From NCBI RefSeq assembly GCF_008014745.1, contig NZ_VPFD01000028.1, positions 1 to 64,000 of the forward strand: a stretch of DNA of 64,000 bases, written 5' to 3'. This DNA is from Massilia arenae. Lineage in GTDB: Bacteria; Pseudomonadota; Gammaproteobacteria; Burkholderiales; Burkholderiaceae_D. The position numbers were made by a program, and so were the translations under genes. Shown here piece after piece: positions 11,478-26,396 of this stretch (the stretch's first letter is position 1; each line of letters starts with the position of its first letter). Below the pieces are notes generated by a model, which ran no database searches, had not been told where the DNA came from, and saw nothing but the letters and a program-made list of their open reading frames with translations.

Positions 11478-14400
11478 ATGTTGCCGAGCGACCTGACCCA
11501 CCTGACGCCGTCGCAGGTCGACGACCTGCAGCGCAAGCTCGCCGCCGCCGGCTGCGATCCGCCACCCGGCGCGCGCACCGTCGCCGAACTGCAAGTCGCC
11601 TTCGCCCTGCTGCGCAAGCGCCACGGCCTGGCGCCGTCGGACAAGATCGACGCGGCGCTGCTGCGCTGCCTCGACGCCGCCGCCGGCCACCTGTTCGGCG
11701 AGGTGCTGCGCGACGAACTCGACATGCTGCGCCCCGCGACGACCGAAGAAGGCGGCGCCGCGCTTGACGCCGCGCTGCCGCCCGACCGCGAGCGCCTATT
11801 GCAGCGCGCCCACGGCGGCATGCTGGCCGGCCTGGCCCTGTCCGGCGGCGGCGTGCGCAGCGCCACCTTCAGCCTGGGCGCCCTGCAGGCGCTGGCGCGC
11901 TGCGGCCTGCTGCGCCACATCGACTACCTGTCCACCGTGTCCGGCGGCGGCTTCGTCGGCGGCTGGCTGTCCAAATGCCTGCATGCCAACGGCGGCGACA
12001 TCGGCAAGGTGGAAGCCATGCTGGCGCCGCAGGCCGGCAGCGGCGAAGCCCCGGAACTGCGCTTCCTGCGCCAGTACAGCAACTACCTGTCGCCGCAGGG
12101 CGGCATGTTCAGCGCCGACACCTGGACCCTGGTCGGCACCTATGTGCGCAACACGGGCCTGAACCTGGCCATGCTGGTGGCCTGGATGTGCGCCCTGCTG
12201 CTGCTGCCGCGCTTTGCCGTCTGGGCCGTGCACCGCGTGGTCGCGCCGGGCGGGCCATGGACGCACCTGGCCGACATCGCCTGGATCGTCGGCGTGCTGC
12301 TGTTCCTGTTCGCCGTGTTCTGCATCGCGCTGTCGATCTCGAGCAAGCCCGAAAGCTCGCGCGGGATGCGCCGCTTTCCGCTGTCGCAGGGCGCGGTTCT
12401 GTGGTGCATCAACCTGCCGCTGCTGCTGGCGGGCTTCCTCGGCAGCCTGGGCCTGTGGCGCCACGGCGGCGCGGCGCCGTCAAGCATCCTGCCCACCCAG
12501 CTCGAAGGCCGCTGGCACTGGCTGCTGGCCCCGGGCCTGGTGTATTTCATCGTCTGGGCCTGCGGCTGGTACCTGGCCCACGACCGCTCCAGCCCCTACC
12601 GCCGCACCGGCTACACCGTGTGCGCCGCAGGCAGCACCAGCGTGCTGCTGGTGCTGCTCGAAGCCGGGCGCGCCTTCGCCCCCGGGATCCTGGCGCTGCT
12701 GCGGGTCGATGCCGCCCGGCTGTCGCTGCTGCTGTGCGCGACGGTCGGCCTGCTGCTGGTGCTGGCCGGCTGGCTGGCCATCTACACGCGGCTGCACGCC
12801 GACCCGCCGCTGCGCGACCTCACCCGCGCCGAACTGGGAGAAGGCCTGTCGCACTTCCTGTGCGCGATGGGCGCGCTCACCCTCGGCACCCTGCTGCTGC
12901 TGGGCGGAATGGCGGTGCTGCCCGATCCCGCCGGCCAGCGCGTGCTGAACGACGCGATCGCCCTCGCCACCTTCGGCATGCCGCTCATGATGGTGCTGTT
13001 CGCCGCCACCATGACCCTCATGATCGGCCTGGTCGGCCGCTGTACAGCGACGCCAGCCGCGAATGGTGGAGCCGGCAAGGCGCCTGGACCGCGATCTTCG
13101 CCCTCCTGTGGTTGACCGTGTACGCCACTTGCTTCTACATTCCTCCCTTGCTGCACTGGGCCTGGCTGACCTACGAGCCCTGGTCGAACCTGGGCACCCT
13201 GCTCGGCTGGCTGGCGATGACCGCCTTCGGACTCAAGGCCGGCAGCAGCATGTCGACCGGCGCGCGCGGCGCCCCGGACCCGAAGCTCGAACTGGTCGCG
13301 CGGCTGGCGCCCTATGTGTTCACGGTCGGGATCTTCGCCCTGTTGAGCAGCCTGGTGCAGGCCACGGTGGCGCTGCCGAAGGTCGCCTGCCCCAGGTCCG
13401 AGCTGACCTGCGTGCTGCGCGCCCATGCCGACGCCACCCTGGCCACGAACGGCGCGACCCTGCTGCTGGCCTTCGGCGCCTTCCTGGGCGCCGCCCTGCT
13501 GCTCGGCTGGCGGGTCGACATCAATAAGTTTTCCCTCTATATGCTGTACCGCAACCGGGTGGTGCGGGCCTGGTTCGGCGCCGGCAACCGCGCGCGCCAG
13601 CCGCATCCCTTCACCGGTTTCGACCCCAACGACGACATGCTGCTGGCCGAGCTGCGCTACGGACGACCGTACCCGATCGTGAACACCGCGCTGAACCTGG
13701 TCAGCGGCGCCGAGCTGGCCTGGCAGACACGGCGCACCGCCTCGTTCGCCTTCACGCCGCGCTGGTGCGGTTATGAGCAAGCCAGCGCGGTGCCTGGCAG
13801 CGCTGGCGCGCCAGCGGGCTGCTACCGGCCGACCGACGGATATGCCTCGCGCTCCGGCGTCGGCCTGGACGACGATGCCGGCGTGCGGCTCGGGATGGCG
13901 GTGGCCCTGTCCGGCGCCGCGGCCAGCCCGAATATGGGCGCGCACTCGTCGCCGCCCCTGAACTTCCTGATGACGATGTTCAACGTGCGCCTGGGGCGCT
14001 GGTGCCCGAATCCCGCGCGCCGCGCCTGGACCAGCGCCTCGCCGCCGATCGGCCTGTTCAGCCTTTTGTCCGAGCTGTTCGGCCAGCTCGATGCCGACGC
14101 CGCCTACGTCCACCTGACCGACGGCGGCCACTTCGACAACCTCGGCATCTACGAACTGGTGCGGCGCCGCTGCCGGCTGGTGATCGCGGTCGACGTCGGC
14201 AGCGACCGCTATCTCGCCTTCGAAGACCTGGGCAATGCGATCCGGCGCTGCGGCACCGATCTGCACGTGCGCATCGACCTCGACGTTTCGCGCCTGGCAA
14301 CGGACGGCGACAAGGGCATGTGCGGCGCAAGCTGCGCGGCCGGCAGCATCCGCTACAGCCTGGCCGACCGCGGCGCGGCCGACGGCGTGCTCCTGTACGT

Positions 14401-14671
14401 GAAACCGGCCATCGTCGGCAGCGAGAACGCCGACCTGCTCAACTACCGAAAGCTCCATCCCGACTACCCGCACGAGAGCATCGCCGACCAGTGGTTCGAC
14501 GAAGCCCAGTTCGAGAGCTACCGCGCGCTGGGCGACCACATCGTCGACTGCGCGCTGCACGAAGCGGCGCGCGCCACCGTGGGCGCCAACGGCGAACAGG
14601 ATATCGGGGCGCTGTGCGCGCAGCTGCTGCAGCGGCATGGGCCGGCGGCGCAGAATCGCACGGGCGCGTGA
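11478..14671 (+). pseudogene. Patatin-like phospholipase with membrane domain, frameshifted
   Basis: One long gene in two frames: codons run from 11478 to about 13038, then continue in the -1 frame to 14671. The junction GGCCGCTGTACAGC reads normally if one C is restored (GGCCGCCTGTACAGC). Restored length is about 1,064 residues. Parts in order: a peptidoglycan-binding-like segment (residues 10-65), the patatin oxyanion motif SGGGVRSATF and nucleophile region STVSGGGFVGG, several membrane helices spread over about residues 210-700, and the catalytic-Asp motif TDGGHFDNLGIYE near the C-terminus. Serine and aspartate of the dyad therefore fall on opposite sides of the frameshift, so the sequence as given could not make an active lipase. 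Either a real inactivating deletion or a sequencing error. It overlaps nothing and ends 1 bp from the convergent MFS gene. Confidence 0.75.
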
Positions 14672-14672
14672 G

Positions 14673-16043
14673 TCAGCCCGCCGGTAGTGGTGAGCGTGCT
14701 GGTACGCTGTGCGCCGCCAGCAACCGTCCCAGGCAGGCCAGCGCCAGCAGCGAAAACAGCACCGCGCTGCCCAGCGTCAGGCGGTAATCGTGGCCCGAAT
14801 GGTCGAGCAGGGGTCCGATGCAGCTGGCCACCAGGATGTTGGCGAAGGCGACCAGGATGTCCTTGCTCGCGTTGTAGCGAACGAACTCTTCGCGCGGGAA
14901 CAGCGCCAGCGGCATCGCCGCCGCCGCGGTGAAATAGGCGCCGGAGCAGATCACATGGGCGACGTAGAACGGGCGGAAACTGGCCGCGCCGTCGACCAGC
15001 AACCAGCCACCCAGCGCGATCGCGAAGTACAGCGCCATCATGGCGGCGGCCACGCGCACCGCGCCGCGCCGGTCGACCAGCCAGCCGATGACGAAGGCGC
15101 TGGCGATCGACACCGCATAGGCCATTGCGGTCAGCTCGCCCAGTTCCGCCTTCGACAGCCCCAGGTCGAGCGCATAGTGCAGCGAAAAGGTATTGAAGGG
15201 GACGAAGGTGACGGCGGCCAGCATGAAGGCGCCGAAGATCCACAGGTAGCGGCGCTGGGCGCAGCACAGGCGCAACTGGGTGCGCGCCAGCGCCAGCCGT
15301 CCGCCAGCCGCTGCGGCGGCAGCGTCGTCATGCGCGACAGGCGCCGGCGGCGGGTAGCCGCCCTCGCGCACCATCAGGCACATCAGCGGTATCGTCAGGC
15401 CGAAGATCAGGGCGATCGCCACCAGGATCTCGGCCAGCCAGGCTTCGCTCAGGGCGAACAGCGTCATGTTGAAACCGATCGCCACGCCCAGGCCGACGAC
15501 GCGCACGGCGGCATAGAAGCGGCCGGCCAGCCCGAACGGAATGACGTCGGCCACCAGCCCGGCGAACAGCGCCATCGTGGTCATGGCGGCGGCGTCGAAC
15601 ACGGTCCAGAACAGGCAGAACAAGCCCAGTTCGAGCGGGCGCAGGCCGGGCGACCAGGCACCCAGCAGCGCGTGCGCGCCGGCCGCGAACGCGGGCGCCA
15701 GGGCCACGCACAGCATCGCGACGGCGGCCAGCGGCGCGCTGACCAGCAAGAAGGGGCGGCGCCGTCCCCAGCGGCTGCGGCTGCGGTCGGATCTCAGCCC
15801 GATGGCCGGCACCACCAGCAGGCTGATAAGCGCCGGCACGGTCGACAGCAGCATGGCGACGGCGGTGTCCGAGGCGCCGTGGTTGCGCAGCACGACCAGC
15901 CCGATCGGGCCGGCCCAGCGCTCGCGCACCGCGATCCCGAGTGCGCCGACCAGCAGCCAGCCGACCAGTACGCACAAGCCCCAGGCGCCATAGCGCAGCG
16001 TGCCGGCCTGCCAGCTTGCGTTCGCGAGGGCGGCGCGCCGCAT
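14673..16043 (-). CDS. MFS sugar transporter
   Basis: A 456-residue integral membrane protein with about 12 hydrophobic helices. It has the MFS loop motif between helices 2 and 3 (GLRSDRSRSRWGRRRPF, the extended form seen in the SLC45/GPH-like sugar porters) and a repeated WLVDRRGAVR loop in the second half. It lies 7 bp after a LacI-type regulator on the same strand and next to a polysaccharide degradation operon, so it most likely imports an oligo- or monosaccharide released by those enzymes. The transported sugar cannot be told from sequence. Confidence 0.8.
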   Translation of the reverse strand: MRRAALANASWQAGTLRYGAWGLCVLVGWLLVGALGIAVRERWAGPIGLVVLRNHGASDTAVAMLLSTVPALISLLVVPAIGLRSDRSRSRWGRRRPFLLVSAPLAAVAMLCVALAPAFAAGAHALLGAWSPGLRPLELGLFCLFWTVFDAAAMTTMALFAGLVADVIPFGLAGRFYAAVRVVGLGVAIGFNMTLFALSEAWLAEILVAIALIFGLTIPLMCLMVREGGYPPPAPVAHDDAAAAAAGGRLALARTQLRLCCAQRRYLWIFGAFMLAAVTFVPFNTFSLHYALDLGLSKAELGELTAMAYAVSIASAFVIGWLVDRRGAVRVAAAMMALYFAIALGGWLLVDGAASFRPFYVAHVICSGAYFTAAAAMPLALFPREEFVRYNASKDILVAFANILVASCIGPLLDHSGHDYRLTLGSAVLFSLLALACLGRLLAAHSVPARSPLPAG

Positions 16044-16050
16044 CCTGGAT

Positions 16051-17064
16051 CTACGCCGGCGCGGGGCCGGTCGAGTCGCGCACCACCAGCTCGGTCTCGA
16101 AGGCGATGCGGGCGGCGGCTGGCGGGCGGCCTTCGATCATCTCGACCACCTCCCGCACCGCGCGTTCCGCCAGCGCCTCGTAGGGCTGGTGCATCGTGGT
16201 CAGGCGCGGGAACACGTGGCTGGCGGTCGAGATGTCGTCGAAGCCGACCACCGAGACATCGGCCGGCACCTTCAGGCCGCGGCTGGCGACGGCGTCGATG
16301 GCGCCGAAGGCCATCTCGTCGTTGGCGGCGAAGATCGCGGTGGGCGGCGCCTCCAGCTCGAGCAGGCGGCGGGTGGCGGCGAAGCCACCCGGCTGGTTGA
16401 AGGCGCCGTCGACCACCAGGGCCGGGTCGACGGCGATGCCGGCCGCCGCCAGCGCTTCGGTGTAACCGCGTTCGCGTTCGGCACTCTGGCCGGTGCGCTT
16501 GGTGCCGGCGATGAAGGCGATGCGGCGGTGCCCGAGGCCGATCAGGTGTTCTACCGCACGCCGCGCGCCGATGCGGTTTTCCAGCACGATGGTGGGCAGC
16601 GCCAGCTGGCGCGCATCGAAGAACACCAGCGCGCAACTGAGCTGCTGGCGCTCGACCAAGTCCAGGAAGCGGTCGTCGGCGGTCGGCATCAGCAGCAGCA
16701 GGCCGTCGCACAGCTTGCTGAGCGTGGCGCAGGTGGTCATCCGGTCCGGGCTGTCGAAGCGATCGGCGTTGAACAGCAGCAGGTCGTAGTCGCGCTTGCG
16801 CGCCTGCTCGCCGATGGCGCGCACCAGCTCGTGCAGCACCACCGGGCCGTAGTTGTTCATGAACACGCCGATCAGCTTGCTCTTGTCGCCGCGCATGCGG
16901 CGCGCGAGCATGTCCGGCGTGTAGTTCAGCTGAGCCGCGGCCGCCATGATGCGCTCGCGCGCCGCGTCCGACACATAGCCGGTGCCGCGGATCGCGCGCG
17001 AAGCGGTGATGGGCGCGACGCCGGCCAGGCGGGCGACCTCGCTCAGTTTGCTGGCTTTGGCCAT
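16051..17064 (-). CDS. LacI family transcriptional regulator
   Basis: A 337-residue LacI/GalR regulator: helix-turn-helix at residues about 7-28 ([19 protein letters not shown]), hinge helix near 50-57 (PDMLARRMR) and a periplasmic-binding-protein-like sugar sensor domain ([22 protein letters not shown]). The hinge is MLARRM rather than the usual A-L-A, which is common in GntR-subgroup LacI proteins. It shares an operon with the MFS transporter and faces the receptor operon, whose promoter carries two LacI-type palindromes. It probably represses the locus until the sugar inducer appears. Confidence 0.9.
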
Positions 17065-17120: not shown

Positions 17121-17136
17121 GTGGTTACGATACCAC
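17121..17136. promoter_or_regulatory. LacI-type operator 1
   Basis: GTGGTTACGATACCAC: perfect 5-bp outer arms (GTGGT/ACCAC) around a TACGAT core, of the size and symmetry of LacI-family operators. It lies near the lacI start, suggesting autoregulation. It shares TGGT-N6-ACCA with the second site at 17235. Confidence 0.65.
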
Positions 17137-17234: not shown

Positions 17235-17266
17235 ATGGTAACGTAACCATACGGTTGTCATATAAG
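17235..17266 (+). promoter_or_regulatory. LacI-type operator 2 and receptor-operon -10
   Basis: ATGGTAACGTAACCAT (17235-17250) has 5-bp arms ATGGT/ACCAT and the same TGGT-N6-ACCA plan as operator 1. A -10 hexamer TATAAG (17261-17266) follows, so the operator covers the place of the -35 and spacer. Bound repressor would block polymerase there. The whole gap 17065-17367 holds only these sites, the inverted repeat at 17088 and the receptor leader. Confidence 0.6.
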
Positions 17267-17367: not shown

Positions 17368-20253
17368 ATGCAGAAGAAGATTTTGGCCGCGGCGCTGCCG
17401 CTGGCTTTGGCCGCCGCATACATGACACCCGCGCTGGCCCAGCAGGCGCCCACCGCGCCCGACGCCACCACCCCGGACACCCCCGCTACCGCGGAACCAC
17501 CAGCGGCCGACAGCACGGCCGCGCCCACCACCGTGGTGGTCACGGGCTTCCGTTCCAGCCTGCAGAAGGCGCTGAACCTCAAGCAGCAGGCGATCGGCGT
17601 ACGCGATTCGATCGTCGCCGAGGACATCGGCAAATTCCCCGAGGCGAACGTGGCCGAATCGCTGCAGCGCGTGCCCGGCGTGATCCTGAACCGCGACGAC
17701 AGTTCGGGCGAAGGCCAGCGCATCTCGATCCGCGGCCTGCCCACCGAGTATTCGGTGACGACCCTGAACGGCGCGCCGGTCAACACCACATCCACCAGCA
17801 CCATCGGCAGCGCCGCGCGCGGCTTCAACTACGACGTATTCGCGTCCGAACTGTTCGGACGGGTCGACTTTTACAAGTCGCCATTGGCCGAACTGACCGA
17901 GGGCGGCATGGGCGGCATCGTCGACCTGCAGACCCCGCGCCCCTTCGACAGTCCCAAGCGCACCATCCGCTACGCGGTCTCCGGCGCCTACAACACCAGC
18001 GCCAAGGAGGCCGATCCGACCGGCTTCGCGCTGTATTCGAACACCTGGGGCCCATGGGGCTTCCTGGCCGGCGTGGCCCATTCGAAGGCGGTCAACAACC
18101 GCTCCGGCTTCGAAGCCACCGGCGGCTACAACAGCTCGGCCAACGGCAGCCGCAATCCGGTGCTGGGCAACTTCGCCCTCGCCCTCGACTACGACGACCC
18201 GCGCGCCAACCTGTCGGGCTACTCGCGCGAGCAGATCGACAACGCCCTGCTGCCGCGCATCTACCGCTACTACGGCTCGCAGAACCGGCGCAGCCGCGAC
18301 GGCCTGGTGAGCTCCCTGCAGTTCAAGCAGGGTGGCCTGAACCTGAGCCTGGACGGCCTGTACTCGCGCCTGGAGAACAGCCGCGACGAGCTGTACTACG
18401 GCCTCCTGATCCGCAACACCCGCACCACCAACCGCAACGCGCCGCCGGGAACCAACGGCCACAACGGCCTGGTGCCGATCGACGTGAAGATCGATCCCGG
18501 CTCGAACCTCCTGACCGGCACCTTCGGCAATACCTCGTACAGCAGCGGCGTGACCTATGGCGAAGACAAGACCGAGTTCGGCTACCTGGCGCTCAACGGC
18601 CGCTGGGAGGCGCGCCCGGGACTGGTGGTGACCGGCCAGGTGAGCGCCAACAACAGCAAGGCCACCAGCTATTCGGATACCCTGTCGGGCCAGATCTTCG
18701 GCGTCGACACGACCATCGACTACGGCGCCGACCATGTCTACCCGTCGATGTCCTCGCCGATCGACTACACCGACCCCGCTAATTTCAGCGGCTTCGACGT
18801 CACCACCGGCTGGACCCGCGAGCGCGACAAGGGCCGCCAGGCGCGCCTGGTGGTGGACTACGACTACGACCTGTTTGGCGGCTGGACCGGGCGCCTCAAG
18901 ACCGGCCTGGTCTACGTCGACACCAGCAAGGACGTCGAAAAACGCAATGCCGGCGCCGCCATGAAGGCCAAGATGGTCGGCCTGGGCGACGCCAGCGTGC
19001 GCGCCAATATGGTCTCGGTGTTGCCGATCCCCGACCTGGACATGGGCCCCGGCTGGCCGAACCGCTTCGGCACCTTCACCCGCGACTATGCGTTCTCGAC
19101 CTACGATCCGGTCGCCTTCAACACGAGCGAAGCGTTCACGCCGGCGCAGAGCTTCGGCGCGGTCGAAAAGGTCAGCACCGGCTTCGTGCAGTCCGATTTC
19201 AAGGGCGACGTGCTGGGACGCGAGCTGCGCCTGAACGCCGGCGTGCGCTGGTCGCAGACGAAGCTCGACATCGACAACTTCAAGAGGAGCGGCAGCGGCA
19301 ACGCCTACCAGCCGAACAGCGAACAGGGCAAGTACACCAATGTGCTGCCGGCCGTCAGCGCGGCCTGGGACCTGAACGACGAGCTGATCTTCCGCACCTC
19401 GTGGGGCAAGACCATCAGCCGCGCCTCGCTGTCGATCATCGCGGCCCAGACCGTGATCCCGAACGCCTTCGACAACACCGCGACCGCCGGCAACCCGAAC
19501 CTCAAGCCCCAGCAGTCGAAGAACTTCGACACCAGCCTGGAATGGTATTTCAAGCCGGGCAGCCTGCTGTCGGCGGCCTACTTCAAGAAGAAGCTGACCG
19601 ACGCCACGGTGTCGACCACCACCAATACCACCTTCGGCGCACTCGGCCTGCCCGACACCGCGCTCGGGGCGATCTTCCAGGACCCGAGCGGCCGGGTCGA
19701 CCCGAACCTGCCGATGGTGCTGCGCACCTACAGCAACGCCGGCGAACAGACGCTCAAGGGCTACGAGCTGGCCTACCAGCAGGACTTCACCTTCCTGCCG
19801 GACCCGTTCAAGGGCTTCGGCGCGCTGGCCAGCTATACCCACATCGATCCCTTCAATAGCATGCGCTGGATCACCAAGGCCGGCAAGGAGATCGAGGTCA
19901 ACTCGGTGCCCAAGTACGCCTACAGCGTCACGACCTATTACGAGCGCGGCCCGCTGGCGATGCGCCTGTCCTACAACTACAAGGACCGCTCGCTGCATGG
20001 CGACAACCCTCGGAATAACGGCGACGACCTGATACGCTGGCGCGCCGCGCGCGGCTACCTGGACGGCACCATCAGCTACAAGCTGTCCGAGAACCTGGAG
20101 CTGCGCCTGGATGCGCTGAACCTGACCGACACCCTGAATTACGACTACTTCGAGGACGCCAACGGCCAGTACGGCAGCGGCAAGCACACGCGGATGGACT
20201 ACGCGAAGTACGACGGGCGCACGTTCAAGATCGGCATCCGCGGCAAGCTGTGA
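17368..20253 (+). CDS. TonB-dependent receptor (carbohydrate type)
   Basis: A 961-residue outer-membrane receptor. Signal peptide at residues 1-25 (ending PALAQ), a Pro/Ala/Thr-rich stretch, a TonB box-like TVVVTGFRSSL near residue 55, then the plug (IAEDIGKFPEANVAESLQRVPGV-type sequence; GQRISIRGL) and a beta-barrel ending in an aromatic-rich, terminal KIGIRGKL strand. The plug resembles the receptors used for plant-polysaccharide oligomers in Xanthomonas and Caulobacter. Start at 17368 was chosen for AGGAG upstream and the signal peptide; the frame is open further upstream. First gene of a five-gene operon whose downstream genes overlap it. Confidence 0.9.
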   Translation: MQKKILAAALPLALAAAYMTPALAQQAPTAPDATTPDTPATAEPPAADSTAAPTTVVVTGFRSSLQKALNLKQQAIGVRDSIVAEDIGKFPEANVAESLQRVPGVILNRDDSSGEGQRISIRGLPTEYSVTTLNGAPVNTTSTSTIGSAARGFNYDVFASELFGRVDFYKSPLAELTEGGMGGIVDLQTPRPFDSPKRTIRYAVSGAYNTSAKEADPTGFALYSNTWGPWGFLAGVAHSKAVNNRSGFEATGGYNSSANGSRNPVLGNFALALDYDDPRANLSGYSREQIDNALLPRIYRYYGSQNRRSRDGLVSSLQFKQGGLNLSLDGLYSRLENSRDELYYGLLIRNTRTTNRNAPPGTNGHNGLVPIDVKIDPGSNLLTGTFGNTSYSSGVTYGEDKTEFGYLALNGRWEARPGLVVTGQVSANNSKATSYSDTLSGQIFGVDTTIDYGADHVYPSMSSPIDYTDPANFSGFDVTTGWTRERDKGRQARLVVDYDYDLFGGWTGRLKTGLVYVDTSKDVEKRNAGAAMKAKMVGLGDASVRANMVSVLPIPDLDMGPGWPNRFGTFTRDYAFSTYDPVAFNTSEAFTPAQSFGAVEKVSTGFVQSDFKGDVLGRELRLNAGVRWSQTKLDIDNFKRSGSGNAYQPNSEQGKYTNVLPAVSAAWDLNDELIFRTSWGKTISRASLSIIAAQTVIPNAFDNTATAGNPNLKPQQSKNFDTSLEWYFKPGSLLSAAYFKKKLTDATVSTTTNTTFGALGLPDTALGAIFQDPSGRVDPNLPMVLRTYSNAGEQTLKGYELAYQQDFTFLPDPFKGFGALASYTHIDPFNSMRWITKAGKEIEVNSVPKYAYSVTTYYERGPLAMRLSYNYKDRSLHGDNPRNNGDDLIRWRAARGYLDGTISYKLSENLELRLDALNLTDTLNYDYFEDANGQYGSGKHTRMDYAKYDGRTFKIGIRGKL

Positions 20254-21593
20254 TGCGGATGACCGGCTTTATTTATCGCTGCAGCGGGATCGTGGTCGGC
20301 GCTGTCCTGCTGCACGGCTGCGCCACTGGTCCCGCAGTTGGTCCAACCTTGAGCCAGGTCGGCCCAGGCTGGGCCGGCAACTCGGTCAATGCCGTGGTGT
20401 TTCGCAAGAACGCCCTGGCCAGCGACGGCGCGCACCAGTACATCGCCTACTACGATGGCGCCGGCCAGGTCGTGCTGGGCAAGCGCCGCCTCGGCGGCGA
20501 CGCCTGGGAACTGCGCCAGACCGTCTGGCGCGGCAATGTGCGTGACGCCCACAATGCGATCAGCATCATGGTCGACGGCGAAGGCGTGCTGCACATGGCC
20601 TGGGACCAGCACAACAGCCCGCTGAACTATGCGCGCGGCGTCGCCCCCGGCAGCCTCGAACTGCGGACGGCGCCGATGCTGGGGCGCGACGAAGCGTCGC
20701 TGTCCTATCCGGAGTTCTTCCGCATGCCGGATGGCGGCCTGCTGTTCCTGTACCGCGACGGCGGTTCGGGCCGCGGCAACCTGGTCGCCAACCGCTACGA
20801 TCCGGCCACCGGCTGGCGCCGCGTGGCCGACAACTTGATCAGCGGAGAAGGTCAGCGCAACGCCTACTGGCAGGCCGGCGTGGATGGCCTCGGGGTCATC
20901 CACCTGTCCTGGGTCTGGCGCGAATCGCCCGACGTCGCCAGCAACCACGACATGGCCTATGCGCGCTCGCGCGACGGCGGTGCGAGCTGGGAAGACAGCA
21001 ACGGCAAGCCTTACCGTCTGCCGATCACCGCTGCCAGCGCCGAATACGCGGCGCGCATCCCACAGAACAGCGACTTGATCAACCAGACCTCGATGGCCTT
21101 CGACACCCGCGGCCGGCCCTATATCGCCAGCTACTGGAGGACAAAGGACAGCGCCGTGCCCCAGTACCGCGTGCTGTACCGGCGCGACGAAGGCTGGCGC
21201 CGGCTCGACCTGGACTTTCGCAAGACCGCCTTTTCGCTCGCCGGCATGGGCACCAAGGCGATCCCGATCGCGCGGCCGCAGTTGCTGATCGATGGGAATG
21301 CGGGCGAGCCGTCGGGCCTTCTCGTGTTTCGCGACAGCGAGCGCGGCGAGCGGGTGTCGGTGGTGCGCATCCCTGGCTTCGACGCGCCGCGCTGGTCGGT
21401 GCACGACCTGACTGACAGCTCCGTCGGCGCCTGGGAGCCGAGCTACGACACCGAGTTATGGCGGCGCCACGGAGAACTGCACCTGTACCTGCAGGCGGTG
21501 CGGCAAGTCGATGGCGAAGGACTGGCCGACGTGCCGCCGTCCACCGTGCAGGTCTTGCAGTGGCGACCCGCAAGCGACACTCACATTCAATGA
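20253..21593 (+). CDS. BNR_4 beta-propeller lipoprotein, likely CAZyme
   Basis: About 446 residues. The start overlaps the receptor stop codon (a GTG at 20250 and an ATG at 20259 are alternatives). An N-terminal lipoprotein signal ends in LLHGC. The rest is a BNR_4-type repeat protein; the N-terminal hallmark RDAHNAISIMVDGEGVLHMA plus later repeats of the form ARSRDGGASWED, DTRGRPYIASYW and LFRD-like blades suggest a seven-bladed propeller. Known members of this fold include alpha-L-rhamnosidases and rhamnose-glucuronate or ulvan lyases, whose catalytic His lies in the first blades. Here it probably removes a cap from the side chain before the GH105 and GH35 enzymes act. The precise activity is not provable from sequence. 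Confidence 0.7.
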   Translation: MRMTGFIYRCSGIVVGAVLLHGCATGPAVGPTLSQVGPGWAGNSVNAVVFRKNALASDGAHQYIAYYDGAGQVVLGKRRLGGDAWELRQTVWRGNVRDAHNAISIMVDGEGVLHMAWDQHNSPLNYARGVAPGSLELRTAPMLGRDEASLSYPEFFRMPDGGLLFLYRDGGSGRGNLVANRYDPATGWRRVADNLISGEGQRNAYWQAGVDGLGVIHLSWVWRESPDVASNHDMAYARSRDGGASWEDSNGKPYRLPITAASAEYAARIPQNSDLINQTSMAFDTRGRPYIASYWRTKDSAVPQYRVLYRRDEGWRRLDLDFRKTAFSLAGMGTKAIPIARPQLLIDGNAGEPSGLLVFRDSERGERVSVVRIPGFDAPRWSVHDLTDSSVGAWEPSYDTELWRRHGELHLYLQAVRQVDGEGLADVPPSTVQVLQWRPASDTHIQ

Positions 21594-22759
21594 AAGACGA
21601 CATGACGAGACGACTCTACCTCAAGCTTGCCCTGGCCACGCTAGTCACCCTCGCCGGGGGCTGCGCCAGCACCAGTGGTCAAGCGCCTACACGGGCCGAC
21701 GTCCTGGCCGACCTGACCCGCGCCAACGATTACTGGCAACGCAACCACGCCCCGCAGCAGTGGGCGTTCTGGGACGTCGCCGCCTACCACACCGGCAATA
21801 TGGCGGCCTATGCCCTCACCCGCAACGAGGCTTACCGCGACTACTCGACCGCCTGGGCCGAGCATAATCGCTGGCGCGGTGCGGACTCGGACAAGCGGGC
21901 CGACTGGAAGTACAGCTATGGCGAGACCCAGGAATATGTGCTGTTCGGCGACTGGCAGACCTGCTTCCAGACCTATGTCGACCTGTATGAACTCGATGGC
22001 CGCAAGGACCCGCGCCGCATCGCCCGTGCGCGCGAGGTCATGGAATACCAGATGAGCACTTCCAATCGCGATTACTGGTGGTGGGCCGACGGCATCTATA
22101 TGGTGATGCCCGCGATGACGAAGCTGTACAAGGCCACGGGCGAGCAGCGCTACCTCGACAAGCTGCACGAATACTTCACGTATGCCGACCAGCTGATGTA
22201 CGACCCGGATGCGGGCCTGTACTACCGCGACGCCAAGTACATCTACCCCAAGCACAAGTCGGCCAATGGCGGCAAGGACTTCTGGGCGCGCGGCGATGGC
22301 TGGGTGTTCGCCGCCCTGGCCAAGACGCTGGCTGACCTGCCGCCCGACAATCCGAGCCGGCCCCTGCTGACCGAGCGCTTCCGCCGCATGGCAGCGGCCC
22401 TCAAGCCACTGCAGCAGGACGATGGCTACTGGACCCGCAGCCTGCTCGACCCTGGCCATGCGCCGGGGCCGGAAAGCAGCGGCACCGCCTTCTTCACCTA
22501 TGCCTACGCCTGGGGCATCAACAACGGCTACCTGGACCGCGCCGCGTATGCGCCGACCGCCCTGCGCGGCTGGCATTTCCTCAGCCGGGTCGCGCTGCAG
22601 TCCGATGGGCGAGTCGGCTATGTGCAGCCGATCGGCGAGCGCGCGATCCCTGGCCAGGTCGTGAACCAGGACTCGACCGCGCCCTTCGGCGTCGGCGCCT
22701 TCCTGCTGGCGGCGAGCGAGATGGCGGGCCTGGTCGATAACGCGGGAGGTGAGCGATGA
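21590..22759 (+). CDS. GH105 unsaturated glucuronyl/galacturonyl hydrolase, lipoprotein
   Basis: A 389-residue protein with a lipobox (LAGGCAS) and a six-hairpin (alpha/alpha)6 barrel typical of GH105. GH105 enzymes hydrate and release the 4,5-unsaturated uronic acid left by polysaccharide lyases. Family-like segments are YGETQEYVLFGDWQTCF, WWWADGIYMVMPAMTKLY (the Asp in WADG aligns with the catalytic Asp region of YteR-like enzymes) and ARGDGWVFAAL. The ATG at 21590 overlaps the upstream stop (ATGA), and the gene itself overlaps the next by four bases. Its presence implies that a lyase generates its substrate; the BNR_4 gene upstream is the only local candidate. Confidence 0.85.
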   Translation: MKDDMTRRLYLKLALATLVTLAGGCASTSGQAPTRADVLADLTRANDYWQRNHAPQQWAFWDVAAYHTGNMAAYALTRNEAYRDYSTAWAEHNRWRGADSDKRADWKYSYGETQEYVLFGDWQTCFQTYVDLYELDGRKDPRRIARAREVMEYQMSTSNRDYWWWADGIYMVMPAMTKLYKATGEQRYLDKLHEYFTYADQLMYDPDAGLYYRDAKYIYPKHKSANGGKDFWARGDGWVFAALAKTLADLPPDNPSRPLLTERFRRMAAALKPLQQDDGYWTRSLLDPGHAPGPESSGTAFFTYAYAWGINNGYLDRAAYAPTALRGWHFLSRVALQSDGRVGYVQPIGERAIPGQVVNQDSTAPFGVGAFLLAASEMAGLVDNAGGER

Positions 22760-25116
22760 CGCCTACGCTGCCTCGCCGGCGCCTGCTGCAGGGCGCCGCG
22801 GCCAGTTCCGCGCTGGCGCTCTTGCCAGCTCAGATCCAGGCTGCTGCCTCGCACCGTTTCGCGATCGGCCGCGAAGACTTTCTGCTGGACGGCAAGCCGC
22901 TGCAGATCCGCTGCGGCGAGATGCATTTTTCGCGCGTGCCGCGCGAGTACTGGACGCACCGCCTCAAGACCATCAAGGCGATGGGCCTGAACAGCGTGTG
23001 CGCCTACCTGTTCTGGAACTACCACGAGTGGCGTGAAGGAAAATTCGACTGGGCCGGCCAGCGCGATGCCGCCGAATTCTGCCGGCTAGCGCAGCAGGAA
23101 GGCCTGTGGGTGATTCTGCGCCCCGGTCCGTATGCCTGCGCCGAATGGGAGATGGGTGGCCTGCCCTGGTGGCTGCTCAAGCAACCGGGCGACGCCTTCC
23201 TGCGTTCCACGAGCGAAGCCTTCCTGGCGCCGTCGCGGCGCTGGCTGCGCGAGGTCGGCCGCGTGCTCGGCTCGCAGCAGGTGACGCGCGGCGGCCCGAT
23301 CCTGATGGTGCAGGTCGAGAACGAATACGGCTTCTATGGCGAAGACCTGGACTATATGCGCGCGCTGCGCCAGGCCGTGCTGGACGCCGGCTTCGACGTC
23401 CCGCTATTCCAGTGCAACCCGACCAATGCGGTGGCCAAGACCCACATCCCCGAGCTGTATTCGGTGGCGAACTTCGGCAGCAACCCCGAGGCCGGTTTCA
23501 AGGCGCTGACCGAGGTGCAGCAAGGACCGCTGATGTGCGGCGAGTACTATTCCGGCTGGTTCGACACCTGGGGCGCGCCGCACCGCCGCGGCGGCGTCGA
23601 GAACGCCGTAGCCGACATCAAGACGATGCTGGCAGCGAACGGCTCGTTCAGCCTCTACATGGCGCACGGCGGCACCACCTTCGGCCTGTGGGGCGGCTGC
23701 GACCGGCCGTTCCGGCCCGACACCACCAGCTACGACTACGACGCCCCGATCAGCGAGGCCGGCTGGATCGGCGCCAAGTTCGAGGCCTATCGCACCGCGA
23801 TGACGCCCTTCCTGGCACCAGGTGAGACCTTGCCGCAGCCGCCGGCGCCGATGCCGGTGATGACGATCCCCGCCTTCGCCCTGAACGAGACCGCGCCATT
23901 GAGCGCCAGTCTGCCGGCGCGCACGATCCGGGATGCGTCGCCGCGCCCGATCGAGGAATACGACATCAGCCGCGGCATCGTCGCCTACCGCGTCACCTTG
24001 CCGGCCGGTCCCGCCGGGGTGCTGGCGGCGGCCAAGGTGCGCGACCTGGCCTGGGTGCGGGTCGACGGCAAGCTGGTGGGCACGATGGACACGCGCTACC
24101 GCCGCTTCAAGGTGACGATCCCCGCGCGCAGCAAGCCCGTAACCGTCGAGGTCTTGCTGTACACGATCGCGCGCGTGAACTTCGGCGTCGAGATCCACGA
24201 CCGCAAGGGTATGCATGGTCCGGTCACCTTCACGCCAAACGGCGGCGAGGCCCAGGCGCTGGAAAACTGGGAGATCCGCGCCATCGATTTCGATGCCGAA
24301 GGCGTGCTGCCGCCGCTGGCGTTCAAACGCGGCCGCAGCAAGGACGCGGCGTTCTGGCGCGGCAGCTTCGACACGAGCGCCACCCACGACACCTTCCTCG
24401 ACATGTCGGGCTGGGGCCAGGGCATCGTCTGGATCAACGGCCGCTGCCTGGGCCGCTACTGGAGCATCGGACCGACCCAGACCATGTACCTGCCGGGGCC
24501 GTGGATCAAGCGCGGCCGCAACGAGGTAGTCGTGCTCGACCTGACCGGCCCGCGCGAGGCGCGCATCGTGGGCCTCGCCAAACCGATCCTCGACCAGCTG
24601 CACCGCGAGCGCGACCTCGAACGCCCGCCCAGCACCGTCAGGCTGCAGCTCGACGGCGTGCAGCCCGCGCACGAAGGCGCGTTCGCGCCCGGCTCCGCGA
24701 CCCAGGACGTGCGCTTCGCGGCGCCGCTGCGCGCGCGCCAGTTCTGCCTCGAGTCGCTCGACGCCTTCGACGGCAAGCCCTACGCCGCCGTGGCCGAGCT
24801 GGCGTTGCTGGACAAGAACGGCAAGACGATCGAGCAATCCGCCTGGACCATCGCCTGGGTCGACAGCGAAGAAGCGCACAAGGAAGATGGCGGTGCGCTC
24901 AATGCGATCAATGGCCAGAACAGCGATTACTGGCACACGGCCTACAGCGGCCCGGGCGCCGGCACGGCGCACCCGCACCGCCTGGTGATCGACCTCGGCA
25001 AGGACGTCGAGGTGGCCGGCCTGCGCTACGTGCCGCGCCAGGGCAAGGACGACGTTACGGGCCGCATCCGCAGGTATCGCGCCTATGCCGGCGAACGGCT
25101 GGCCGGCGAGCCCTGA
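22756..25116 (+). CDS. GH35 beta-galactosidase with C-terminal discoidin-like domain
   Basis: A 786-residue secreted enzyme. A twin-arginine-type leader (RRRLLQGAAASSALALLPA) precedes the GH35 TIM barrel. The acid/base motif QVENEYG lies near residue 189 and the nucleophile motif GEYYSGWFDTWG near residue 262. The middle part holds beta-sandwich domains, and the last ~150 residues resemble an F5/8 type C (discoidin, CBM32-like) domain ending VAGLRYVPRQG. GH35 removes terminal beta-galactose, as found in arabinogalactan and pectic galactan. Start at 22756 overlaps the GH105 stop codon. Confidence 0.9.
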   Translation: MTPTLPRRRLLQGAAASSALALLPAQIQAAASHRFAIGREDFLLDGKPLQIRCGEMHFSRVPREYWTHRLKTIKAMGLNSVCAYLFWNYHEWREGKFDWAGQRDAAEFCRLAQQEGLWVILRPGPYACAEWEMGGLPWWLLKQPGDAFLRSTSEAFLAPSRRWLREVGRVLGSQQVTRGGPILMVQVENEYGFYGEDLDYMRALRQAVLDAGFDVPLFQCNPTNAVAKTHIPELYSVANFGSNPEAGFKALTEVQQGPLMCGEYYSGWFDTWGAPHRRGGVENAVADIKTMLAANGSFSLYMAHGGTTFGLWGGCDRPFRPDTTSYDYDAPISEAGWIGAKFEAYRTAMTPFLAPGETLPQPPAPMPVMTIPAFALNETAPLSASLPARTIRDASPRPIEEYDISRGIVAYRVTLPAGPAGVLAAAKVRDLAWVRVDGKLVGTMDTRYRRFKVTIPARSKPVTVEVLLYTIARVNFGVEIHDRKGMHGPVTFTPNGGEAQALENWEIRAIDFDAEGVLPPLAFKRGRSKDAAFWRGSFDTSATHDTFLDMSGWGQGIVWINGRCLGRYWSIGPTQTMYLPGPWIKRGRNEVVVLDLTGPREARIVGLAKPILDQLHRERDLERPPSTVRLQLDGVQPAHEGAFAPGSATQDVRFAAPLRARQFCLESLDAFDGKPYAAVAELALLDKNGKTIEQSAWTIAWVDSEEAHKEDGGALNAINGQNSDYWHTAYSGPGAGTAHPHRLVIDLGKDVEVAGLRYVPRQGKDDVTGRIRRYRAYAGERLAGEP

Positions 25117-25139
25117 ATCAATCACGACAAGGAGACGCA

Positions 25140-26396
25140 ATGCAGAGACGAGATTTCATCGGCAGCCTGGCGGCAGGCGCCGCACTGGGCGGCTTGGCTG
25201 CGCCCGCGATGGCCGCGCCACCATCCGCTGCGACCGGCGGCGACCGCGCGTACATGGCCGGCCTGCTGCAGAAGATGGCCGAACCGGTGCTGTCGAATAT
25301 GGCGCGCGGCGAGCTGAAAAAGAACTTCAAGCTGGAGGTGAGCCCGAGCTCGGATGGACGCGACAACAACGTGGCCTACCTGGAAGCCTTCGGCCGGCTG
25401 ATCGCCGGCGCGGCGCCGTGGCTGGCCTTGCCCGACGACGCCAGCGCTGAAGGCAAGACCCGTGCGCGCCTGCGCCAGATGGCCTTGCAGAGCTATGTGC
25501 ATTCGGTCGATCCGAAAAGCCCCGATTACCTGACCTGGCGCGGCCACGGCCAGGCGCTGGTCGACTCGGCCTATTTCACCAATGCGCTGATGCGCGCGCC
25601 GAAAGCGCTGTGGGAGCCGCTCGACACCACCACCAAGCAGCGCATCGTCGCCGAGATCAAGGGCCTGCGCCGGATCGAGCCTCCCTTCATCAACTGGCTG
25701 CTGTTCGCGGCGATGAACGAGGCCTGGCTGCTGTCGATCGGCGAAGAGGCCGATCCGCTGCGCACCAATGTCGCGATCCGCAAGGTCAACGAGTGGTATG
25801 TGGGCGACGGCTGGATCAAGGACGGCGAATCGTTCCACTTCGATTACTACAGTTCTTTCGTGATGTACCCGATGCTGCTCGAGATCCTCGAGGTGCTCGA
25901 ACAGCATAAAGCGCCGTTCTGGAACGGCAAGCCGGCCGAGCTGCGCGCCCAGGCCCTGAAACGCACCCAGCGCTATTGCGAGCACCTGGAACGCTTCATC
26001 TCGCCGCAGGGAACCTTCCCGCCGATCGGCCGCTCGCTCACCTACCGCAGCGCCGCCTTCCAGCCGCTGGCCCTGCTGGCCTGGCGCAAGCAGTTGCCGC
26101 AGACCCTGCCCGAGGGCCAGGTGCGGGCGGCGATGCAGGCGATGCACAAGGCCTTGTACACCGCGCCGGACAACTTCACCAGGGAGGGCTATCTCACCAT
26201 CGGCTTCGCCGGCCACCAGCCGGAGCTGGGCGACTGGTATTCCAACAGCGGCAGCATGTACATCGCCTCGGCCAGCTTCCTGGCCCTGGGCCTGCCGGCC
26301 GACGATTCCTACTGGACCAGCCCGGCCCAGGACTGGACCCAGAAAAAGGCCTTCAGCGGCGCCAGATTCCGCAAGGACTACCCGGTCGATTATTGA
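25140..26396 (+). CDS. DUF2264 protein (possible beta-glucuronidase)
   Basis: A 418-residue protein with a twin-arginine-like leader (QRRDFIGSLAAGAAL) and a DUF2264 domain: (alpha/alpha) toroid, with hallmark segments DGWIKDGESFHFDYYSSFVMYP (seen in two pieces) and FPPIGRSLTYR. Strong ribosome site AAGGAGA. Some DUF2264 proteins are assigned, as I recall, to a CAZy family of exo-beta-glucuronidases; that was not checked here. It closes the receptor operon, 23 bp after GH35. In this setting it may remove saturated glucuronic acid while GH105 removes the unsaturated form. Confidence 0.75.
   Translation: MQRRDFIGSLAAGAALGGLAAPAMAAPPSAATGGDRAYMAGLLQKMAEPVLSNMARGELKKNFKLEVSPSSDGRDNNVAYLEAFGRLIAGAAPWLALPDDASAEGKTRARLRQMALQSYVHSVDPKSPDYLTWRGHGQALVDSAYFTNALMRAPKALWEPLDTTTKQRIVAEIKGLRRIEPPFINWLLFAAMNEAWLLSIGEEADPLRTNVAIRKVNEWYVGDGWIKDGESFHFDYYSSFVMYPMLLEILEVLEQHKAPFWNGKPAELRAQALKRTQRYCEHLERFISPQGTFPPIGRSLTYRSAAFQPLALLAWRKQLPQTLPEGQVRAAMQAMHKALYTAPDNFTREGYLTIGFAGHQPELGDWYSNSGSMYIASASFLALGLPADDSYWTSPAQDWTQKKAFSGARFRKDYPVDY

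Follow-up and report, generated by a model that had tools for sequence, protein, structure and literature searches.

We analysed a stretch of 64,000 nucleotides from Massilia arenae (NZ_VPFD01000028.1, positions 1–64,000; hereafter "the window", whose positions serve as coordinates throughout) and focused on an operon divergent from a LacI-family gene, which we read, with a probability of about 75%, as a LacI-controlled system that dismantles the glucuronate-bearing side chains of arabinogalactan proteins (AGPs) outside the cytoplasm. In the proposed scheme, a TonB-dependent receptor would import AGP oligosaccharides, and the anterior face of a PL42 propeller would remove the capping L-rhamnose (Rha) from Rha-alpha-1,4-glucuronic acid (GlcA) by beta-elimination, as shown for relatives, leaving an unsaturated glucuronyl end. 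A DUF2264 protein would remove water from uncapped terminal GlcA to yield the same unsaturated end, again as shown for relatives, and a single GH105 enzyme would remove the unsaturated uronate arising from both routes. A GH35 enzyme would then remove the exposed beta-galactose, a carrier of the major facilitator superfamily (MFS) would bring products into the cytoplasm, and the LacI protein would repress the system from two operators. Such a scheme would require no alpha-rhamnosidase and no true beta-glucuronidase. An original prediction, made from the window sequence, had proposed Rha–GlcA–galactose side chains of arabinogalactan as the substrate class, and this is well supported by homology. 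The features of the locus are as follows:

17368–20253, plus strand: TonB-dependent outer-membrane receptor (TIGR01782, 581.7 bits, cut-off 310; Pfam Plug and barrel)
20253–21593, plus strand: BNR_4 propeller of PL42 (former GH145), predicted L-Rha-alpha-1,4-GlcA lyase (PF15892, E = 1.2e-86)
21590–22759, plus strand: GH105-type unsaturated glucuronyl hydrolase (PF07470, E = 3.2e-87; 5noa_A, E = 1.4e-158)
22756–25116, plus strand: GH35 beta-galactosidase with a C-terminal F5/8 type C domain (PF01301, E = 5.3e-102; PF00754, E = 7.1e-08; 6eon_A, E = 2e-198)
25140–26396, plus strand: DUF2264 (former GH154) protein, predicted beta-D-glucuronate dehydratase (PF10022, E = 2.2e-111; matches 8oi4, 9o4u and 9nwf)
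17121–17136, no strand: predicted LacI operator O1 (core 17122–17135), palindromic, pair kept in relatives
17235–17250, no strand: predicted LacI operator O2 (core 17236–17249), palindromic, 114 bp from O1
16051–17064, minus strand: LacI-family repressor, divergent from the operon (Pfam LacI and Peripla_BP_3)
14673–16043, minus strand: MFS sugar transporter of the MFS_2 type (Pfam MFS_2, E = 2.6e-15; matches adjoin LacI in relatives, e.g., loci L031, L058, and L061)

The receptor, BNR_4, GH105, GH35, and DUF2264 genes that had been placed within 17368–26396 are all borne out by open reading frames and Pfam. The description of a single overlapping operon holds for the first three junctions, with overlaps of 1, 4, and 4 bases, but not for the GH35 and DUF2264 genes, which lie 23 bases apart; likewise, the anticipated MFS uptake gene is present, adjoining and divergent, but falls outside that interval. 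Signals read by eye from the sequence are lipoprotein-like for the propeller and the GH105 protein and twin-arginine-like for the GH35 and DUF2264 proteins, and all four enzymes should therefore act outside the cytoplasm.

Predicted activities of the propeller and its partner enzymes

In a sequence search of solved structures, the propeller matched the GH145/PL42 relatives 5muk (BT3686), 4irt, 5mum, and 5mvh over about residues 25–437, with E values from 2e-144 to 2e-140 (2.1e-144 for 5muk), and the fungal lyase FoRham1 (7esk) over residues 43–316 (E = 1.2e-30), i.e., its homology to PL42 extends over nearly the whole length. The renaming of GH145 as PL42 rested on the FoRham1 evidence (PMC8377490), which makes the original statement that no classical lyase family is present out of date. 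For Bacteroides members, the anterior face is reported to be a Rha–GlcA lyase, with a GH105 enzyme taking the unsaturated product of one member, and BT3686 mutants at H90, Y143, and R333 lost lyase activity (PMC8406133). Based on residue lists drawn from PMC8377490, PMC13169297, and PMC8406133, an alignment showed that the FoRham1 anterior residues D83, H85, H105, Y150, R166, S170, Y202, R220, N275, and Q276 are all present in the window propeller, and that BT3686 H90, Y143, and R333 correspond to its H100, Y152, and R341. In its own numbering, the anterior residues kept are D98, H100, H120, Y152, R168, S172, Y205, R223, N277, Q278, and R341, and the only one of 11 checked FoRham1 residues to differ is Tyr26, which is Phe50. 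The suggestion that the propeller could be the missing lyase, which a loss of all catalytic residues would have undermined, is thus strengthened by both the close relatives with proven anterior activity and the retained catalytic residues, and we predict that this protein is a PL42 L-Rha-alpha-1,4-GlcA lyase. Membership of PL24, PL25, or PL27 was also considered and rejected: the 13 distinct Protein Data Bank sequences matched at E ≤ 1 included six partial matches to ulvan lyases (E = 0.003–0.019) and none labelled PL27.

The DUF2264 protein had been put forward as a beta-glucuronidase, but more recent work reports dehydratase activity in this family. BcGDH of B. caccae, a former GH154 (DUF2264) member, is described as a glucuronate dehydratase whose action on terminal GlcA makes a substrate for an unsaturated uronyl hydrolase, the account given being of no glycosidase activity that held up and no hydrolase-like active site; BT3677 also displays dehydratase activity, a dehydratase and a GH88 enzyme were assayed together for a relative, and GH154 genes often neighbour GH88 or GH105 genes (PMC12269599). 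Two of the three solved relatives of the window protein (384 and 382 bits) are named glucuronate dehydratases. The proposed catalytic residues Y229, Y289, and R285 of BcGDH correspond to Y237, Y302, and R298, which are kept in 46 of 46 homologues (some sharing a genome, and with 11 matches below 250 bits excluded), and nine of the ten BcGDH residues with inactive mutants are likewise retained in the window protein and in all 46. Judged by these sequence comparisons, the protein is better read as a predicted glucuronate dehydratase for uncapped GlcA than as a beta-glucuronidase.

The remaining two enzymes were assigned from Pfam models and solved relatives. The Pfam model matched by the GH105 protein (PF07470, 293 bits, cut-off 26.6) is common to GH88 and GH105, and solved chains named GH105 gave weaker matches than 5noa. 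The GH35 protein carries the catalytic domain PF01301 along with the beta-galactosidase accessory domains PF21317 and PF21467. Their respective solved relatives are 5noa and 6eon. In related genomes, GH35 may be present or absent beside PL42, GH105, and the dehydratase (L034, L065, and others such as L048 and L052–L055), and it looks like an optional part of the gene set.

Gene order, co-occurrence, and predicted regulation

PL42, dehydratase, and GH105 homologues were searched separately in one set of 294 genomes of the same bacterial family. Strong PL42 matches were detected in 28 genomes, 26 of them at ≥61% identity and two (G187 and G288) at 36–38%, with G007 and G016 excluded from this count as their matches had E values near 4e-4. 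Dehydratase matches (E ≤ 1e-100) were found in 29 genomes, i.e., all 28 PL42 genomes and G260, and GH105 matches (E ≤ 1e-100) in 27, i.e., all PL42 genomes except G182. This limit was chosen after GH105 scores split into a close group (E ≤ 1e-158) and a distant one (E ≥ 1e-67); more distant relatives of GH105 are often present in the 28 PL42 genomes and were not counted in the other 266. Fisher tests, which ignore the relatedness of genomes, gave p = 2.6e-38 for PL42 with the dehydratase and p = 2.4e-37 for PL42 with GH105. This near-perfect co-occurrence of close homologues is new here.

In 26 of the 28 PL42 genomes, GH105 and the dehydratase share a strand and are separated by at most 2.8 kb (directly adjacent in 18); the exceptions are G182, without a close GH105, and G125, whose two genes fall on different contigs. 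PL42 itself is found no more than 10 kb from GH105 in 16 genomes and elsewhere in 12, and 11 of these 12 still have GH105 and the dehydratase ≤2.8 kb apart. Because co-occurrence holds where PL42 is unlinked, the three genes appear to be kept together by function and not by location only, and the genome-wide pairing with GH105 provides independent support for DUF2264/GH154 proteins as dehydratases. No carbohydrate enzyme was found among the neighbours scanned around two unlinked PL42 genes (eight neighbours at L074, four at L075). In G187 and G288 (loci L056 and L057), the divergent PL42-like protein keeps the main anterior residues with a gap at the Arg341 column, and the GH105–dehydratase pair lies about 14–29 kb away.

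The gene order of the operon is equal in related genomes (e.g., L058, L061, L062, and L070), and since it repeats, the arrangement is not a chance one. The nearest named locus is that of Massilia timonae (L058), whose propeller is 91% identical. Between the LacI and receptor genes are two TGGTNNCGNNACCA copies 114 bp apart, while 0.04 such cores are expected by chance in the whole window. The operator pattern, which was derived by comparing these same intergenic regions, occurs as a pair in 18 of the 21 regions in which LacI directly neighbours the receptor gene, or 16 of 19 when corrected for two genomes counted twice. These regions comprise the window and 20 loci among L031–L055 and L058–L085, with L064 and L085 set aside as their LacI and receptor genes are not adjacent. 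Spacing is 111–120 bp in 16 regions and 63 bp in two, and no further copy occurs in the rest of those loci. Across the M. arenae genome, a stricter operator pattern has one further perfect copy, and the pattern at ≤1 mismatch occurs at nine places, compared to five for a reversed control. At the further operator-like sites C6:107070 and C13:33283 (one mismatch), for which open frames were listed only, no target gene was identified. All 20 NCBIfam matches of the LacI protein fell below cut-off. We infer that it represses from both predicted operators, and this conserved LacI-type operator pair is new here. As for transport, the receptor would import the glycan, and candidate cargoes of the MFS protein are rhamnose, galactose, or the unsaturated uronate product.

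The posterior site of the propeller

At the position of the posterior catalytic His48 of BT3686, the window propeller has Asp58, and it therefore lacks the histidine of GH145-type rhamnosidases. Bacteroides members without posterior His are described as lyases only (PMC8406133). To place this substitution in context, we aligned 107 homologues (27 from a family search and the best 80 of 266 from a wider one), of which 97 were distinct, yielding 98 sequences with the window propeller, a sample biased to its relatives. The first nine FoRham1 active-site residues (D83 to N275) are invariant in all 98, Q276 is kept in 95, and R341 (BT3686 R333) in 96, the other two being gaps. The posterior position is occupied by His in 37 sequences, Asp in 17, Gln in 11, Tyr in 10, Asn in 9, and others in 14, i.e., 11 different residues in all, and the column ranks 348 of 404 in conservation. 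Relatives with a gene order identical to that of the operon include propellers with posterior His. On one quick tree, built with the posterior column excluded, with weak support for 32 of its 95 inner branches and no reliable root, His and non-His states at this site change 20 times; 70 similarly variable columns show a mean of 14.8 changes, and 10 of these reach 20. This suggests that the posterior column is a free column and not an unusual one.

Counted by record, 16 of 50 Bacteroidota, 12 of 30 Pseudomonadota, and 9 of 18 rows lacking a phylum name carry posterior His, and judged by their titles, most of these rows come from soil, plant, or water bacteria. One report gives posterior His for about 70% of homologues (PMC8377490); another states that it is seldom retained outside the human gut and interprets the hydrolase as having arisen recently through the human diet (PMC8406133). 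The latter claim fits poorly with our sample because His is found in 37 of 98 sequences, mostly from soil, plant, or water bacteria, a spread that, like the count of 20 changes, is new here and does not fit well with a recent gut origin. We tentatively propose, as a possibility falling somewhat short of even odds, that in Oxalobacteraceae with this gene set AGP side-chain glucuronate leaves by elimination and not hydrolysis: PL42 would eliminate rhamnose from capped GlcA, the DUF2264 protein would act on other ends, eliminating water and possibly, from 4-O-methyl-GlcA, methanol, with a single GH105 collecting both products, while the PL42 posterior site would be an old, easily lost or regained second site in non-gut bacteria and not a recent gut innovation.

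Alternative readings, product fate, and known systems

Several other explanations would account for parts of these data. On the same substrate, the DUF2264 protein could be a true exo-glycosidase, either a beta-glucuronidase or a beta-1,6-galactosidase, leaving GH105 to be fed by the PL42 product only. Earlier GH154 reports, as described in PMC12269599, and the beta-galactosidase label of the closest solved relative, 8oi4, would favour this, but the same source presents BcGDH without sustained glycosidase activity or a hydrolase-like site and BT3677 as a dehydratase too. As the BcGDH residues are kept in the window protein and its gene remains within 2.8 kb of GH105 in nearly all genomes with an unlinked PL42, we consider an exo-glycosidase unlikely. 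Far less probable still is a rhamnosidase acting at the posterior face of the propeller with Asp replacing His. Posterior His is admittedly frequent among relatives, some with the gene order of this operon, yet members with Gln or Asp at this position had no hydrolase activity until mutated to His (PMC8377490; PMC8406133), and the NCBIfam model of the BT3686 rhamnosidase (NF052497) scores the window propeller at 586.8 bits, below its cut-off of 700.

Whether the operon targets another Rha–GlcA glycan, such as an ulvan-like polymer or a bacterial exopolysaccharide, bears on the substrate itself. The weak and partial ulvan-lyase matches of the propeller point in this direction, and the exact natural motif is doubtful, as lyase-only Bacteroides relatives are reported to cut wine AGP and not gum arabic (PMC8406133); for the same reason, gum arabic could mislead as a growth substrate. 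However, GH145 proteins from AGP research are the solved structures closest to the propeller, the solved relatives of GH105 and GH35 (5noa and 6eon) likewise come from AGP work, and by Pfam none of the seven genes encodes a sulfatase, which makes a non-AGP target improbable.

A number of observations also weigh against the AGP side-chain elimination scheme that we favour. For the propeller, FoRham1 Tyr26, which binds rhamnose, is replaced by Phe, although this is probably not decisive since BT3686 (5muk) has Phe too, as do all 98 aligned sequences; the alignment with FoRham1 does not reach its R331 and E381, and the residue comparison covers the positions before them. For the DUF2264 protein, the beta-galactosidase-labelled 8oi4 is the top solved match, at 498 bits vs 384 and 382 for the dehydratases, and the tenth BcGDH residue, N176, is Ile184, with Ile in 24, Ser in 14, Thr in 7, and Asn in 1 of the 46 homologues. 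Among genomes, G182 combines PL42 and the dehydratase without a close GH105, G260 has the dehydratase alone, a GH35 match is absent near PL42 in L048, L052–L055, L072, and L073, and three of the 21 intergenic regions are without the operator pair. Finally, the expected handling of the product and the backbone is incomplete. KduI had no match in the M. arenae genome, while a control search finds it in 6 of 14 genomes, and KduD had none above cut-off; the GH105 product therefore lacks its usual pathway, and another uronate route must be assumed. A backbone beta-1,3-galactanase was not identified, with none in the operon by Pfam.

In alginate users, the unsaturated uronate product is reduced directly by a dedicated reductase, and such an enzyme could possibly replace the KduI/KduD route. 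UxaC also had no match in the M. arenae genome, whereas the control search finds it in 7 of 14 genomes; its absence would be expected were free glucuronate not the main product. Elsewhere in the genome are 11 GH43 places, eight of which were compared to NCBIfam with no match over cut-off, no subfamily call, and no galactanase. Four GH43 places are located on contig C13, around 42–46 kb and 71 kb, one of them resembling an alpha-arabinofuranosidase model below cut-off, and these might supply arabinose removal in arabinogalactan breakdown.

All enzyme families of the operon are already known, and four known systems come closest to it. In Bacteroides plebeius PUL5, the lyase-only GH145/PL42 protein BACPLE_00338, which has no posterior His, acts with the GH105 protein BACPLE_00337 on AGP Rha–GlcA caps; that gut locus is of the SusC type and includes GH43_24 (PMC8406133), whereas the Massilia operon has no GH43_24 and groups a TonB receptor, LacI, MFS, GH35, and DUF2264. 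FoRham1, the PL42 enzyme of Fusarium oxysporum, shares the ten anterior residues, including His85, His105, Tyr150, Arg166, and Arg220, but is fungal and distant (E of 1e-30), active on gum arabic, and differs in its posterior Tyr34 and in its Tyr26, which is Phe in Massilia (PMC8377490). BcGDH shares the DUF2264 family, nine of ten residues, and an unsaturated uronyl hydrolase partner, but belongs to a chondroitin locus with GH88, and its N176 is Ile in Massilia (PMC12269599). The PL42/GH105/DUF2264 trio also occurs in Bacteroidota, in locus L089 of Cesiribacter sp. SM1, as a row in which DUF2264, GH43, PL42, and GH88/105 stand together with another, longer DUF2264 gene after them; this locus differs in its SusC/SusD uptake and in having no match to the window LacI or MFS.

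A search of open-licence literature found no account of the Massilia operon or of a two-elimination route. The operon would represent a compact, LacI-switched proteobacterial route for a hard part of plant arabinogalactan, and its small gene set makes it possible to test both the substrates of lyase-only PL42 enzymes and the age, ancestral or recent, of the posterior hydrolase site. Elsewhere in the window, a patatin-like gene, recognised by reading, at 11478–14671 is spread over two frames (11478–13115 and the frame of 11975–14671), and is therefore either interrupted or holds a sequencing error.

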